Below, in pieces: positions 44,813-50,814 of a stretch of DNA of 64,000 nt; position 1 is the first letter of the stretch; every line of letters starts with the position of its first letter. Origin of the DNA: Polymorphobacter multimanifer (GTDB lineage: Bacteria > Pseudomonadota > Alphaproteobacteria > Sphingomonadales > Sphingomonadaceae). The translations under genes and the position numbers were made by a program. The notes beneath the pieces are model-generated. The model was given only the letters and a program-made list of their open reading frames with translations. It had not been told where the DNA came from and did no database searches. The stretch is taken from NCBI RefSeq assembly GCF_014205635.1, contig NZ_JACIIV010000008.1, positions 1 to 64,000 of the forward strand. Direction: 5' to 3'.

Positions 44813-45187
44813 ATGTCGTTCCTCAATCCCTCGGCCGCCGATCGGCGCAAGCGCTTCCTCATCGTCGGGGGTGCGTCGGTGGCGATCACCGCGCTCGTCA
44901 TGTTCGCCTTTCTGATCGAGAACCGCTCGGGCTACATGAAGCCCGATCCGAAGATCATCTATGCGGAAAGCTGGTCCGCCGATCGCACGCGCGAGGACGC
45001 GATTGCCGATCAGGTCGCCACAACCCAGGCCCGCGAAGCCAAGCTGGCCGAGGCACGCGACTATATCGACACGCTGAGCGGCCCCGCGCGGCAGGCGGCG
45101 CAGGAGCAATATGATGCCTATGTGGCCGGTGGTGCCATCCGCAAGGATGTGCCTTATGTTCCCGCGTCCGAACCGCCGGTGATGTGA
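44813..45187 (+). CDS. Small single-pass membrane protein
   Basis: This 124-aa protein has a short basic N-terminus, one TM helix (about 18-38: IVGGASVAITALVMFAFLI) and a charged helical C-terminal part (about 60-105). No family is known to me. The GTG start of ribD overlaps its stop (GTGA), so it is translated together with the riboflavin genes. It lies 57 bp after gltX. Confidence 0.75.
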   Translation: MSFLNPSAADRRKRFLIVGGASVAITALVMFAFLIENRSGYMKPDPKIIYAESWSADRTREDAIADQVATTQAREAKLAEARDYIDTLSGPARQAAQEQYDAYVAGGAIRKDVPYVPASEPPVM

Positions 45188-46137
45188 CCATTTACGACGA
45201 CCGCTGGATGGGCGCCGCTCTGGCGCTCGCCAGCCGCGGTATCGGTACGACCTGGCCGAACCCTGGCGTGGGGTGCATCGTGGTACGCGGCGGGGTGGTG
45301 CTGGGGCGTGGATGGACGCAGCCGGGGGGTCGGCCGCATGCCGAAGCCATGGCGCTGGGCGGGATTGATGCCCGTGGCGCCACCGCCTATGTGACGCTCG
45401 AACCCTGTGCGCACGAGAGTGCCCGCGGACCGGCATGTGCCGATGGGCTGGTGGCGGCCGGCGTGGCGCGGGTGGTGGTCGCGGCACAGGATCCGGACCC
45501 GCGCACCAATGGTGTCGGCATCGCGCGGCTCCGCGGCGCAGGCATCGACGTAGCGACCGGCGTGCGCGCGGGGGAGGCCGCGGCATCGATGGCCGGCTTC
45601 TTCAGCCAGCAGCAGCGGCGCCGGCCGCACATCACGCTCAAGCTCGCGCTCAGCCTCGATGGCTCGCTGGCGCTGGCGGACGGCACCAGTCGCTGGATCA
45701 CCGGGCCATGCGCGCGTGCCCATGCGCATCTGCAGCGCGCCCGCGCCGACCTGATGCTGGTTGGCAGCGGCACGTTGCGCGCCGATGCGCCGAAGCTCGA
45801 TGTGCGGGTGCCGGGGCTGGAGGGCCGCACGCCTGGCCGCGCGGTGCTTGGGCGAGGGCCTGCACCCGCAGGCTGGCAGCATTTCAACTCGCTGGAAGCG
45901 CTTTGCCAATCCGCGGCGCATCATGTGCTGGTGGAGGGCGGTGCCGGCGTCGCTGCCAGCCTGCTCCGCGCCGATCTGGTTGATCGGCTGCTCATTTACC
46001 GCGCTCCCATCCTGCTCGGCGGCCGGCCCGGCATAGCCGACCTCGGCCTGGCCCAGATCGCGCACGATCGCTGGCGGGCCGAGCCTGTCGTCGCACTTGG
46101 GCCCGACCGGCTTGAGCCGTTTACCCGCATCCGTTAG
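45184..46137 (+). CDS. ribD: Riboflavin biosynthesis deaminase/reductase RibD
   Basis: This 317-aa bifunctional enzyme carries out the second and third steps of riboflavin synthesis. The N-terminal deaminase domain has the zinc motif PHAEAMALGG with VTLEPCAHESARGPACADGL. The C-terminal reductase domain starts near RPHITLKLALSLDGSLALADG and includes VEGGAGVAASLLRADLVDRL. It starts with GTG at 45184, overlapping the upstream gene. The reductase domain is somewhat short but complete in its motifs. Confidence 0.94.
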   Translation: MTIYDDRWMGAALALASRGIGTTWPNPGVGCIVVRGGVVLGRGWTQPGGRPHAEAMALGGIDARGATAYVTLEPCAHESARGPACADGLVAAGVARVVVAAQDPDPRTNGVGIARLRGAGIDVATGVRAGEAAASMAGFFSQQQRRRPHITLKLALSLDGSLALADGTSRWITGPCARAHAHLQRARADLMLVGSGTLRADAPKLDVRVPGLEGRTPGRAVLGRGPAPAGWQHFNSLEALCQSAAHHVLVEGGAGVAASLLRADLVDRLLIYRAPILLGGRPGIADLGLAQIAHDRWRAEPVVALGPDRLEPFTRIR

Positions 46138-46146
46138 GGCACAGCC

Positions 46147-46749
46147 ATGTTTACCGGGATCATCACCGACATCGGCACCATCGCAGCGGTCGAGGACCGT
46201 GGCGACCTGCGCATCGAGGTCGCCACCAGCTACGACACTTCAGGCGTGGCGCTTGGTGCCAGCATCAGTTGCTCGGGCGTGTGCCTTACCGTCGTCGCCA
46301 AGGCACCCGGCCGGTTCAGCGTCGATGTCTCGGGCGAAACGCGCAGCCGCACCGCAGACGGGCAATGGGTGGCGGGCCGCCGCCTCAACCTCGAACGCGC
46401 GCTCAAGGTGGGGGACGAGCTTGGCGGCCATATCGTCACCGGCCATGTCGATGCCATCGGCACTATCCTCACCCGCACGGCCGAGGGCGGCAGCACGCGA
46501 TTCGAAATTGCCGTGCCGGCGGAAATCGCCCCCTTCATCGCCCCAAAGGGCTCGGTGGCGCTCGATGGCGTTTCGCTGACCGTGAATGCCGTGGAAGACC
46601 GGGCGGAGGGTACGGTTTTCGGTATCAACATCATTCCGCACACCGCTGAATGGACAACCTTCGCCGGCGCGAAGCCCGGCGACGAGATCAATATCGAGAT
46701 CGATGTGCTTGCCCGCTATCTTGCCCGGATGCGCCAACTCGTCGATTGA
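46147..46749 (+). CDS. ribE: Riboflavin synthase alpha subunit
   Basis: This 200-aa enzyme makes riboflavin from two lumazine molecules. Two homologous lumazine-binding repeats are visible: MFTGIITDIGTIAAVEDRG with SISCSGVCLTVVA, and GGHIVTGHVDAIGTI with GSVALDGVSLTVNAV. It starts 9 bp after ribD. Its stop codon (46747-46749) lies inside the first palindrome of the ribB operator candidate. Confidence 0.95.
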   Translation: MFTGIITDIGTIAAVEDRGDLRIEVATSYDTSGVALGASISCSGVCLTVVAKAPGRFSVDVSGETRSRTADGQWVAGRRLNLERALKVGDELGGHIVTGHVDAIGTILTRTAEGGSTRFEIAVPAEIAPFIAPKGSVALDGVSLTVNAVEDRAEGTVFGINIIPHTAEWTTFAGAKPGDEINIEIDVLARYLARMRQLVD

Positions 46750-46794
46750 CATTGAAATGTGATACGAGCAAGTCATTGTCACATTTTAATGTGA
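46746..46794 (+). promoter_or_regulatory. Twin palindromic operator candidate upstream of HTH-ribB
   Basis: Two 16-bp palindromes share the consensus TCACATTnnAATGTGA. Site 1 is TGACATTGAAATGTGA (46747-46762, one mismatch between arms). Site 2 is TCACATTTTAATGTGA (46779-46794, perfect). Their centres are 32 bp apart, about three helical turns, so a dimer on each would face the same side. A -35-like TTGACA (46746-46751) overlaps site 1. Site 2 ends 10 bp before the ATG of the HTH-RibB gene at 46805. Confidence 0.6.
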
Positions 46795-46804
46795 GGCACT
46801 GCAC

Positions 46805-48094
46805 ATGTCGCTGATCAGCCGGGTTCGCAATCTTGTCGCTGCTGGTGAGGAAACCCGCTCCGGGCTGGCGCGCGCTGCGGGGCTCCACGCCAATTCGCTC
46901 CGCAACCTTGAAGATGATGACTGGAATCCGACGACCGAAACGCTGCGCAAGCTCGAGGACTATCTCGGCAAGCGCGAGCAGGGGCCTGCCCTCTCGCCGA
47001 TCGAGGAGATCATCAACGAAGCGCGCAACGGCCGCATGTTCATCCTTGTCGACGATGAGGACCGCGAGAATGAGGGCGATCTCGTGATTCCCGGCCAGAT
47101 GGCGACGCCGGATGCCATCAACTTCATGGCGCGCCACGGCCGCGGTCTCATCTGCCTCTCGCTGTCGGCGACACGCGTCCGCCAGCTCGGGCTGCCGCTG
47201 ATGGCGCAGCACAATGGCACCCACCACAGCACCGCCTTCACCGTCTCGATCGAAGCCCGAGACGGCGTCACCACCGGCATTTCCGCCGCCGATCGTGCCC
47301 GCACCATCGCGGTGGCCATCGATGGCAGCAAGGGGCCCGAGCATATCGTCCACCCCGGCCATGTCTTTCCGCTGGTGGCGCGCGATGGCGGCGTGCTGGT
47401 GCGCGCCGGCCATACCGAAGCCGCCGTCGATGTGTCGCGGCTCGCCGGGCTCAACCCGTCGGGGGTCATCTGCGAGATCATGAACGACGATGGCAGCATG
47501 GCGCGGCTGCCCGATCTCATCCCCTTCGCCCGCCGCCACGGCCTCAAGATCGGAACGATTCGCGATCTCATCGCCTATCGCCACCGCCATGACCGGCTGG
47601 TGGCCTGTGTGGCTGAGACCGAGATCGACAGCCATTTCGGCGGTCGCTGGCGGCTGAGCACCTATGCCAACACCGCCGATTATGCCGAGCACATGGTGCT
47701 GCAGAAGGGCCGGATCGAGCCGGGCAAGCCGACGCTTGTCCGCGTCCACACCATGTCGATGTTCACCGACCTGTTCCACGAAGCCAATGACCGTGCCGGC
47801 CAGCTGCAGCGCGCCATGCAGGCGATCGCCGACGAAGGGGCGGGCATCCTCGTCATCATCCGCGATGCCACCCCCACTGCCATCTCGTCGCAGATGCGCG
47901 CCAAGGGCCAGGGCGAGCCGATAGACCTGCGCGATTACGGCATCGGCGCGCAGATCCTCGTCGATCTCGGGGTGTCGGACATGGTGCTGCTGACCAACAA
48001 GCATCGCAATATCGTCGGCCTCACCGGCTATGGCCTCAACGTCGTCGGCGAGCGCGCGCTCCCGCCGCATCCGCTCGAAGGACAAGCAGCATGA
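46805..48094 (+). CDS. ribB: DHBP synthase with N-terminal HTH and degenerate GTP cyclohydrolase II domain (RibBX type)
   Basis: This 429-aa three-part protein starts with residues 1-55 forming a lambda/Xre-type helix-turn-helix ([20 protein letters not shown], then [14 protein letters not shown]). Residues about 65-265 are 3,4-dihydroxy-2-butanone-4-phosphate synthase, with [36 protein letters not shown] and [11 protein letters not shown]. Residues about 270-425 match GTP cyclohydrolase II in fold, but the zinc-binding cysteines are absent: the segment reads [20 protein letters not shown] where active enzymes have the Cys motif. The last domain is probably inactive, as in RibBX variants, so step one must come from another gene. 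The HTH and the twin palindromes just upstream suggest self-regulation. It overlaps ribH by ATGA. Confidence 0.9.
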
Positions 48095-48510
48095 CGCATA
48101 TCCTCATTGTCGAGGCCCGTTTCTATGACGCCATTGCCGATGCCGAATTGGCCGGCGCCGTGGCCGTGCTCGACGCTGCGGGCGCTACGCATGAGCGCAT
48201 CACTGTGCCCGGTGCGCTCGAAATCCCCGGCGCCATCGCCCTTGCCGAAGCCACCGGTCGCTTCGATGGCTATGTGGCGCTGGGCTGCGTGATCCGCGGC
48301 GAAACTTTCCACTTCGAAGTGGTGGCGGGCGAAAGTGCGCGCGGGATCATGGCGCTCACGCTCGATGGCATGGCGATCGGCAACGGCATCCTCACCGTGG
48401 AAAATGAAGCGCAGGCCTGGGCACGGGCGCGAGCGAGCGAAAAGGACAAGGGGGGCGAGGCTGCCAAGGCGGCGCTGGCGATGGTGGCGCTGCGCGGGTC
48501 GCTGGGCTGA
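48091..48510 (+). CDS. ribH: 6,7-dimethyl-8-ribityllumazine synthase
   Basis: This 139-aa lumazine synthase makes the penultimate riboflavin precursor. Family motifs are [56 protein letters not shown] and [16 protein letters not shown], with the catalytic His in the third. It is the last gene of the riboflavin operon. Confidence 0.95.
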
Positions 48511-48531: not shown

Positions 48532-48562
48532 GAAAAAAGCCCCGTGGCAAAGCCACGGGGCT
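48532..48562 (-). terminator. Rho-independent terminator of the fasciclin gene
   Basis: A perfect 11-bp stem, AGCCCCGTGGC/GCCACGGGGCT (48538-48562), with a 3-nt AAA loop is flanked on the left by AAAAAA (48532-48537), i.e. a T-run on the minus strand. This suits termination of the minus-strand fasciclin transcript. It may also end the ribH transcript from the other side. Confidence 0.8.
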
Positions 48563-48660
48563 CGTCGGACGGGTTCGGCTGGCATAGGGCCAGCCGCCCC
48601 GCCGTCCGGGCGCTGCGCCGTCTCGAGCAATAGCTTCGCTATCGCGCGGCGGCTTGGCCT

Positions 48661-49212
48661 TTACGGCTGCACAACGCCATCAACCACGTGAATCACGCCG
48701 TTCGACTGGTTCACATCGGCAATCGTCACATGCGCCATACCACCCTTGGCGTCGCTCAGCATCACGCGGTCACCCATCATCGAGGCGGTCAGCTTGCCGC
48801 CCTGCACGGTGGTAAGTTCGGCCTTGCCGCCACCATCCTTGATCGCCTTGACGACATCGGCGGCCGAAACTTTGCCGGCGACGACATGATAGGTGAGGAT
48901 CGAGGTGAGCGTCGCCTTGTTCTCGGGCTTGACCAGCGTCTCCACCGTGCCGGCGGGCAGCTTTGCGAAGGCGGCATCGGTCGGGGCGAACACGGTGAAC
49001 GGACCGGGGCCCTTGAGGGTGTCGACCAAGCCGGCAGCCTTGACCGCGGCGACCAGCGTGGTGTGATCGTTCGAGTTGAAGGCGTTGTCGATGATGTCCT
49101 TGGTCGGCGACATGGCAGCACCACCGACCATCACGGTCTGGGCGAGCACGGGGACGGCGAGGCCAAGGGCCAGGGCGGCAATGCCGGCGCGAGCAAAGCT
49201 CTTCGAGATCAT
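48661..49212 (-). CDS. Exported fasciclin (FAS1)-domain protein
   Basis: This 183-aa protein has a signal peptide (about 1-25, …GLAVPVLAQ) and one FAS1 domain. The domain shows LVAAVKAAGLVDTLKGPGPF, TVFAPTDAAFAKLPAGTVETL, LTYHVVAGKVSAADVV and NGVIHVVDGVVQP. FAS1 proteins act in adhesion or the envelope. It lies beyond the ECF sigma/anti-sigma genes, which recalls sigma-regulated fasciclin proteins. A strong AGGAG site precedes the ATG at 49212, and a terminator follows. Confidence 0.92.
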   Translation of the reverse strand: MISKSFARAGIAALALGLAVPVLAQTVMVGGAAMSPTKDIIDNAFNSNDHTTLVAAVKAAGLVDTLKGPGPFTVFAPTDAAFAKLPAGTVETLVKPENKATLTSILTYHVVAGKVSAADVVKAIKDGGGKAELTTVQGGKLTASMMGDRVMLSDAKGGMAHVTIADVNQSNGVIHVVDGVVQP

Positions 49213-49411
49213 GATGTAAACTCCTGAACTATAGACATACAGCCACACCCGATCGGGCAGGTGCTGCCTTTTACGTACAGAAGTCGTTCTGCGATGTTAC
49301 AGCAGCGCCGCATGGCGCTTTTGCCGCAGGCGACTGGCCATGTCCGCCAATATGCCAGCTTCCACTCCGATACTCGCGACAACTGCGGCGGTTTCGGAAG
49401 CAGTTCGGCTA

Positions 49412-49492: not shown

Positions 49493-50248
49493 TCAGACGG
49501 CGCTCAGCTTACCCGTGGCAACCACCGGCCCGGTCGGAAGGCCGGTGGGGCTGCCACCGATCGGTTCAATGGAGATGGCGAGCACTGACCCCGGTTGCAA
49601 CCCCGATACGACCTGCGACGAAATGGCATGCGCATTCGGTGTGGCAATTTCGATGATCCCGAGCGAGCGCGGCGGCTTGTCGCCTTCGATCACCCAGAGC
49701 TCCACGTCCCGGTCCGGATCGTCGCGTTCTGCGACCGGCGTCAACACCACGGTGCCCCGCAGCGGATCCCAGGTGGCAGCGAGAAGCGGTGCGCCATCGG
49801 CCCCCGCCAGCGAGGTCGACAGCTGTGCAGGGGCCGCTGCAGCCAGCTGGTCATCGGACGGTGCGGTCACCACCGGGGGAGCAGTGGGGTTCACCGCCAC
49901 GAGCGCCACTGCAGCGAGCGCCGGTCCAGCGATGCCGAGACCGCGCCAGAAGGCCAGATTGTGCCAGAGGCCCTTCGTTTCCGATTGCGTCGTCGGCCCC
50001 GGCGACGACAGGCGTTGCGGCTCGATCTCGTCCAGCACGCCGGCCCAGACACTGCCGGGCGGCAGCACCGTCTCCGTCTCGGCGTCGAGCGGCGCCAGCA
50101 GCGCCTGCCAGCCCTCGACCCGGGCACGGAATGCCGGATCGCTGCGCAGCCGCGCCTCGGCAGACTTGCGCGCCGGCCGATCGAGTGCGCCCAATGCGAA
50201 ATCCATCGCCAGCATGTCGTCAGGCTGCATGTCGGTGGGGTCGCTCAT
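49493..50248 (-). CDS. RskA-type anti-sigma factor
   Basis: This 251-aa membrane anti-sigma protein has an N-terminal cytoplasmic sigma-binding helix region (MQPDDMLAMDFALGALDRPA, AEARLRSDPAFRARVEGWQ), one TM helix (about 104-122: GLGIAGPALAAVALVAV) and a periplasmic RskA C-terminal domain (DVELWVIEGDKPPRSLGIIE, GSVLAISIEPIGGSPTGLPT). No zinc-binding Cys/His motif is present. It presumably holds the ECF sigma factor encoded just before it until a signal causes proteolysis. ATGA overlap with the sigma gene. Confidence 0.9.
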   Translation of the reverse strand: MSDPTDMQPDDMLAMDFALGALDRPARKSAEARLRSDPAFRARVEGWQALLAPLDAETETVLPPGSVWAGVLDEIEPQRLSSPGPTTQSETKGLWHNLAFWRGLGIAGPALAAVALVAVNPTAPPVVTAPSDDQLAAAAPAQLSTSLAGADGAPLLAATWDPLRGTVVLTPVAERDDPDRDVELWVIEGDKPPRSLGIIEIATPNAHAISSQVVSGLQPGSVLAISIEPIGGSPTGLPTGPVVATGKLSAV

Positions 50249-50814
50249 GCGTGCTCCCCATGGCCTTCGGCCGCGCCCATGGCGGCGCGCATGCGCATGA
50301 TGCCGCGCCGCACCCAACTCTTCAGCGTGCCCACCGGCACGCCTTCGCGCGCCGCCAGCTCCTCATAGGTCAGCCCTTCGAAATAGCAGCTGCGGATGGC
50401 GGCCGCCTGGCGCGGGTCGAGCATCGCCAGGGCGGCATGCACGCTGGCCGCACCCCGGGCCGTGTCTATCTGCACATCGGCAAGCGGGGCGCAATCTTCC
50501 ACAAGCCCGGCGTCCTCGAGCGGCGAGGTGGGGCGGGAGCCCTTGGCGCGCAGCCGGTCGATCGCGCGATTGCGTGCGATCGTCGCTGTCCAGGTGATCG
50601 GGCTGGCACGGCTGGAGTCGAACTCCGCCGCCTTTCGCCAAATCGTCACATAAACATCCTGCAGCACGTCTTCAGCCTCTCCGCGTTCGGGCAGTATACG
50701 CAGGATGACGCCAAACAGCTTCGCGGAGGTACGGTCGTAAAAGTCGCGGAAGGCCGCAGTGTCCCCTTCCGACGCCTTGGCCAACAGCCTGGCAAGCTCG
50801 GCAGCGCTGCTCAA
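50245..50814 (-). CDS. ECF RNA polymerase sigma factor (SigK-like)
   Basis: This 189-aa extracytoplasmic-function sigma factor has region 2 (FGVILRILPERGEAEDVLQD, then VYVTIWRKAAEFDSSRASPI, TWTATIARNRAIDRLRA) and region 4 (LEALL-like AALAMLDPRQAAAIRSCYFE, TYEELAAREGVPVGTLKSWV). Pairing with an RskA-type anti-sigma factor and a nearby fasciclin gene resembles the SigK group. Its start overlaps the mlaF stop by ATGA, so it is transcribed from the alr-mla operon. Any ECF promoter of its own is not evident. Confidence 0.92.
   Translation of the reverse strand: MSSAAELARLLAKASEGDTAAFRDFYDRTSAKLFGVILRILPERGEAEDVLQDVYVTIWRKAAEFDSSRASPITWTATIARNRAIDRLRAKGSRPTSPLEDAGLVEDCAPLADVQIDTARGAASVHAALAMLDPRQAAAIRSCYFEGLTYEELAAREGVPVGTLKSWVRRGIMRMRAAMGAAEGHGEHA

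Follow-up and report, generated by a model that had tools for sequence, protein, structure and literature searches.

A putative trigger enzyme built on RibBX and its candidate operator in Sphingomonadaceae

How bacteria that lack FMN riboswitches control riboflavin synthesis is little understood. The FMN riboswitch (RF00050) takes the same place upstream of rib genes as the candidate operator described here, but is an RNA. Archaeal RbkR is an HTH domain fused to riboflavin kinase, a flavin-pathway enzyme; it carries riboflavin kinase and not RibB, is archaeal, and represents a different fusion. RbkR is named as a predicted regulator of rib operons (PMC10746257). In Wolbachia, an alphaproteobacterium, wBmxR1 and wBmxR2 bind upstream of a riboflavin gene, and the available text describes them as separate regulators, reported to activate ribA and secretion genes, with no mention there of a fusion (PMC3518464). 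For bacteria, riboswitches and RibR are mentioned in the accessible sections of a 2025 review (PMC12542839). The main text of a survey of Proteobacteria regulons does not contain riboflavin (PMC5343134).

A different set of relatives is found among trigger enzymes. PutA, BirA, NadR and PepA likewise hold an enzyme and a DNA-binding regulator in one polypeptide, but they are other enzymes of other pathways, and DNA binding, established for them, is inferred for the protein described here. PutA and BirA serve as a comparison of kind. In the part of the literature consulted, the term trigger enzyme is used for PutA, BirA and NadR, and PutA is reported to bind solely its own putA-putP spacer (PMC8249747).

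The closest proteins by layout are the RibBX proteins of Shewanella, Aeromonas and Bradyrhizobium and of Acinetobacter baumannii (structure 6mnz), which share the same two enzyme-derived domains, have lost the Zn cysteines and occur in genomes with a separate RibA gene. In Shewanella RibBX the X domain modulates RibB by a mechanism that is unknown, and the available part of that report mentions neither an HTH nor an operator of its own, unlike what is seen here (PMC10012899). No paper on an HTH-RibB fusion was found in the literature searched, whose coverage leaves out many journals. The RibBX layout and trigger enzymes are already known; a trigger enzyme built on RibBX is proposed here.

The locus and the HTH-RibBX protein

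The stretch of DNA analysed, hereafter the window, is 64 kb long. Its plus strand carries, in order, ribD (deaminase/reductase; 45184-46137, from its ORF and profile matches), ribE (riboflavin synthase; 46147-46749), the HTH-RibBX gene and ribH (lumazine synthase; 48091-48510). The HTH-RibBX gene is an open frame at 46805-48094 that encodes 429 aa from the frame's first ATG, and the start of ribH overlaps its end by 4 bases. Among 81 loci, 80 from named genomes and one not, 64 had full flanks, and in these ribH lies near HTH-ribBX in 64 and ribE in 43. In a single locus of the 81 (G025), a flavin reductase-like gene (L291:4916-5434) is divergent from HTH-ribBX with a common operator region. 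On the minus strand of the window, translations suggest a fasciclin-like secreted protein gene (48661-49248) and an apparent extracytoplasmic-function sigma factor with its anti-sigma factor (49493-50814); a terminator-like hairpin at 48537-48563, between the fasciclin-like gene and ribH, is on the strand of the former.

The window protein joins an HTH, an intact 3,4-dihydroxy-2-butanone 4-phosphate (DHBP) synthase and a GTP-cyclohydrolase-II-like domain. The RibB domain (47003-47578, plus strand; residues 67-258) matches its Pfam profile at E 2.6e-83 and scores above the TIGR00506 cut-off. Residues R87, E88, D92, H203, T204 and E224, which we take to be the catalytic residues, are invariant in 64 aligned orthologues. 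The X domain (47609-48052, plus strand; residues 269-416; E 6.4e-37) reaches 64.5 bits against TIGR00505, for a cut-off of 205.85; it has none of the three Zn cysteines and lacks part of the active-site segment. Across 86 HTH-bearing proteins, cysteine occupies the three Zn positions in 0, 0 and 2 cases, and none has all three. A separate RibA with C-x10-C-x-C Zn cysteines is predicted elsewhere in the window's genome (G000:C2:121948-122433). Supporting the RibBX assignment, structure 6mnz was the third match in a fold search with the full-length model, itself of moderate quality (mean pLDDT 72.5). Profile matches were to RibB and the GTP-cyclohydrolase-II-like domain only, with no riboflavin kinase domain in the window protein. 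Comparison of HTH-bearing with HTH-less proteins revealed no extra conservation of the X domain, and a comparison of constraint on RibB was likewise uninformative. Two other genomes of the window's family, G157 and G243 (genus g3; rated 100% complete), have no PF00926 match, although a genus mate has one; they are possible riboflavin auxotrophs.

The N-terminal part of the protein is a predicted Cro/CI-like HTH domain (46805-46978, plus strand; residues 1-58), recognised from profile, alignment and predicted fold. The profile match is to Pfam HTH_3, at E 0.0063 with 17 bits and at 17-21 bits across searches, under the 23-bit cut-off, and 16 of 50 family members match HTH_3 at E <= 0.01. Alignment of these 50 members gives two invariant blocks, G26 L27 H28 N30 L32 R33 (GLHxNxLR) and W40 N41 P42 T43 (WNPT). 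The AlphaFold model of residues 1-66 (pLDDT 83) resembles Cro/CI-type DNA-binding structures in Foldseek. HigA, HipB, C.Esp1396I, DdrO and SinR are among the 50 matches listed, at a probability of 0.87-0.99 and E >= 0.1; none of the 50 listed has E <= 0.001, and the best is the N-terminal domain of MuB, which is not a repressor (E 0.056). Helices are modelled at 3-12, 18-25 and 44-58, and both models assign none at 26-43, the expected recognition-helix region. No solved structure was matched in a profile search with the HTH. Among 385 genomes of the class, 14 matched in a search for this HTH outside the family: 4 of these belong to the family, and the loci of the other 10 lack a RibB motif, so the search gave no RibB with this HTH beyond the family.

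By sequence and predicted fold, one chain thus combines an enzyme with a DNA-binding domain. An earlier note on this DNA had described it as an HTH-RibB fusion. Its N-terminal HTH is supported by the Cro/CI-like predicted fold, next to an HTH_3 match below threshold, and RibB is present as described, but the X domain had been missed, and the enzyme is HTH-RibBX.

Palindromes upstream of HTH-RibBX genes

Two candidate operators, to which no strand is assigned, precede the gene in the window. Palindrome 2, TCACATTTTAATGTGA (46779-46794), the candidate main operator, is exact and overlaps the GAGG ribosome-binding sequence at 46793-46796. Palindrome 1, TGACATTGAAATGTGA (46747-46762), a candidate second copy, has one mismatch, TGACATT for TCACATT, and the two centres are 32 bp apart. 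Counted at <=3 mismatches in the window alone, the two matches are weak evidence (0.75 expected; 16 of 100 shuffles reach 2). Strong evidence comes from the whole genome (3.92 Mb), where palindromes 1 and 2 are the only matches at <=2 mismatches and the reversed pattern has 0. The whole-genome count, together with shuffled and coding controls, rules out chance palindromes. The CRP/FNR consensus is TGTGA-n6-TCACA. CRP/FNR-like sites were also ruled out, the half-sites here, TCACA-n6-TGTGA, being the inverse arrangement.

Orthologous loci were then compared. A query with the N-terminal part matches 287 of 296 genomes of the order. Tallied by hand from the match listing, the 213 genomes of the window's family divide into 182 that are HTH-bearing by E-value alone, 29 with RibB but without the HTH, and 2 without a RibB match. 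From these searches, 90 HTH-bearing loci were assembled: the 30 best matches to the N-terminal query, the window's own included, and 60 hand-picked over genera. The palindrome is present at <=2 mismatches within 250 bp upstream in 88 of the 90, window included. In 86 of them, again with the window, the best match to TCACATnnnnATGTGA has 0, 1, 2 or 3 mismatches at 49, 25, 10 and 2 loci, respectively; L138 and L148 have sites with 3 mismatches only. The four further loci, initially dropped by the motif pattern, all carry the palindrome at 0 or 1 mismatch. The same holds for HTH loci from named genomes, the best 80 of 579 and partly from the same assemblies as the 90: the palindrome occurs at <=2 mismatches in 79 of 79, one more locus being too short.

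At the same threshold, none of the 30 HTH-less family loci with ribBX has the palindrome upstream; these were drawn from all 29 HTH-less genomes, with start codons assigned by a rule that is crude for HTH-less genes. It was likewise found upstream of 0 of 21 ribBX loci in other families (from 20 of 76 matching genomes), in 0 of 86 coding regions and in 0 of 86 shuffled upstream regions. The earlier note had named a missing palindrome upstream of HTH-bearing orthologues as a ground against self-regulation; the palindrome is instead present at nearly all of those compared, and was not found at the loci without the HTH.

The motif by itself is unspecific. A bare 12-base pattern at <=1 mismatch occurs in 269 of the 296 genomes of the order, including HTH-less ones, up to 14 times (9-14 times in some genomes of family f8), so it is the place of the motif that goes with the HTH. 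Matches to a strict pattern were counted in 32 genomes, chosen mostly for many matches: 24 of 34 lie upstream of HTH-ribBX, and the reversed control gave 2. A wide regulon was rejected, none being evident beyond ribBX-ribH: the 10 of 34 strict matches elsewhere comprise 2 located 3' of ribBX-ribH and 8 without a rib gene (all 10 were checked for rib genes; neighbours were read from ORF lists for 4). A further strict-pattern palindrome lies downstream of ribBX-ribH at L297:3956-3971 (G138) and at L291:2030-2045 (G025). Genome G152, represented only by locus L290, has 12 palindrome matches at <=1 mismatch and 1 at the strict pattern.

The association was also followed along a RibBX tree of 137 rows, a quick build with long branches. 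On the best tree, HTH presence changes 10 times, and at least two changes are forced by well-supported branches. In both supported contrasts the operator goes with the HTH in nearly all pairings, but a sign test on so few contrasts cannot reach significance. Where ribE was recognised upstream of an HTH-less family gene (28 loci), its frame runs open as far as the rule-set ribB start in 23, so HTH and operator could have been lost together in one deletion at the ribE-ribB junction. Joint absence is therefore weaker evidence than joint conservation.

These patterns bear on what binds the palindromes. A separate, unlinked transcription factor might control ribBX-ribH through them, leaving the RibBX HTH otherwise used or functionless. 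The comparative data cannot name the binder, and the window HTH falls under Pfam cut-offs, both of which leave room for such a factor. Nevertheless, we consider it unlikely: as the palindrome at <=2 mismatches occurs nowhere else in the window's genome, such a factor would need to serve this gene alone, and none of the 30 HTH-less loci of the family has the site. In addition, a functionless HTH would not be expected to retain a recognition segment that is invariant in 50 aligned members.

Half-site columns hold 1.15-2.0 bits and flanks mostly <0.3, a difference that is partly an effect of aligning on the best match. A second site (<=4 mismatches) is present in 63 of 86 loci, compared with 8 of 86 when the flanks are shuffled; in 41 of the 63 it is offset by -32, -31 or +32 from the best palindrome; 23 of the 86 HTH-bearing loci lack a good second site. 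The earlier note had reported two copies of one palindrome 32 bp apart on the same helix face. The spacing and the exactness of palindrome 2 stand and palindrome 1 proves to be an imperfect copy, while the shared face is reinforced by the recurrence of the second site at 31-32 bp, or three turns.

A leftover of the ribE end was ruled out as the origin of the site, as ribE is recognised just upstream in only 25 of the 86 loci; all of these have the site, and so do 59 of the remaining 61. More broadly, the palindrome could act without protein, as an RNA hairpin at the start codon, or could be a vestige of the ribE-ribB junction. Inverted repeats are able to form hairpins and the palindrome overlaps the ribosome-binding sequence of the window, but neither origin would readily explain why one fixed sequence, TCACAT/ATGTGA around a free centre, is conserved, why the site is retained away from ribE and at variable distance to the start, or why a second copy recurs in phase, 31-32 bp away. 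Either is highly improbable.

Promoter setting and proposed autorepression

A candidate -35 element, TTGACA (46746-46751, plus strand), is held by the 3' end of ribE, where it overlaps both the stop codon of that gene and palindrome 1; no convincing -10 follows, and a consensus sigma-70 scan found no plus-strand promoter in this region of the window. In the window's genus, all 5 loci, the window among them, have TTGACA 33 bp ahead of the main palindrome. Exact TTGACA lies near the main site in 13 of 86 loci, against 0 with shuffled flanks, while a -35 hexamer with 0-1 mismatches (43 of 86) is hardly commoner than with shuffled flanks (36 of 86). In 58 of 86 loci, the main site itself is 7-15 bp 5' of the start codon. 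Repression is favoured by this placement of the sites, over the promoter or the start.

The same position bears on the sign of control. Bound HTH-RibBX could be an activator or dual regulator instead of a simple repressor, and two sites three turns apart would suit either sign. The lack of a recognisable -10 in the window is also as expected at activator-dependent promoters. The main site, however, is downstream of the classical activator position in those 58 loci, and we judge activation or dual control very unlikely.

Regulation by RNA was also considered. An FMN riboswitch was ruled out as the control here: RF00050 gave no match at the Rfam gathering score in the window, and under stricter filters none of the 213 family genomes had it, versus 16 of 83 other genomes of the order. 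This agrees with the earlier note, which had seen no such riboswitch. In two genomes of family f5 (G004:C1:1016607-1017534 and G038:C10:49354-50301), FMN riboswitches are located just 5' of a short additional ribB gene and not of ribBX.

Since ribD and ribE precede the sites, the unit that the operator would control is ribBX-ribH, whose products make and use DHBP. The self-repression of an own operon proposed in the earlier note gains support from the tie between operator and HTH and from the position of the sites, though for a unit without ribD and ribE. Given a built-in DNA-binding domain and matching conserved palindromes, the enzyme very probably represses the gene that encodes it, and we consider it likely that HTH-RibBX is a dedicated autorepressor, i.e. 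a trigger enzyme, of ribBX-ribH that acts via TCACATnnnnATGTGA palindromes.

RibB is usually a dimer. In the proposed autorepression, the RibB part would make DHBP while the dimer offers two N-terminal Cro/CI-like HTH domains, which would bind the palindrome at the protein's own promoter. A second dimer may occupy the site three helical turns (31-32 bp) away. The bound protein would then cover the promoter or ribosome-binding region and repress ribBX-ribH, providing local protein feedback in place of the FMN riboswitches used elsewhere. Binding may be gated by a ligand, either ribulose 5-phosphate in the RibB site or, in the X domain, a flavin or a pathway metabolite; alternatively, the amount of protein may suffice. 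We infer operator binding by this HTH, repression and the pairing of dimers on two sites from patterns in aligned sequences.

A more far-reaching and tentative proposal is that Sphingomonadaceae in the broad sense, which are bacteria of soil and water, have swapped the FMN riboswitch for HTH-RibBX as an enzyme, metabolite sensor and single-target repressor in one; we regard it as possible, though somewhat doubtful. The state of the pathway would be read via the RibB active site (ribulose 5-phosphate) or the X domain (flavin, GTP or an intermediate) and coupled to DNA binding. The X domain is a tempting sensor, as the available text on Shewanella reports that its X domain modulates RibB (PMC10012899), but in HTH-bearing proteins this domain shows no added conservation.

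Meaning for riboflavin control in sphingomonads

The tie between a conserved operator and an HTH that a pathway enzyme carries makes for a simple and testable circuit. If HTH-RibBX is indeed an autorepressor, it would be a new entry on the short list of trigger enzymes, and its operator would offer a near single-target element for gene control in sphingomonads. It would also suggest a reason why the inactive X domain is kept. Should the sensor proposal hold as well, HTH-RibBX would be to bacteria what RbkR is to archaea, and the X domain would have a role.
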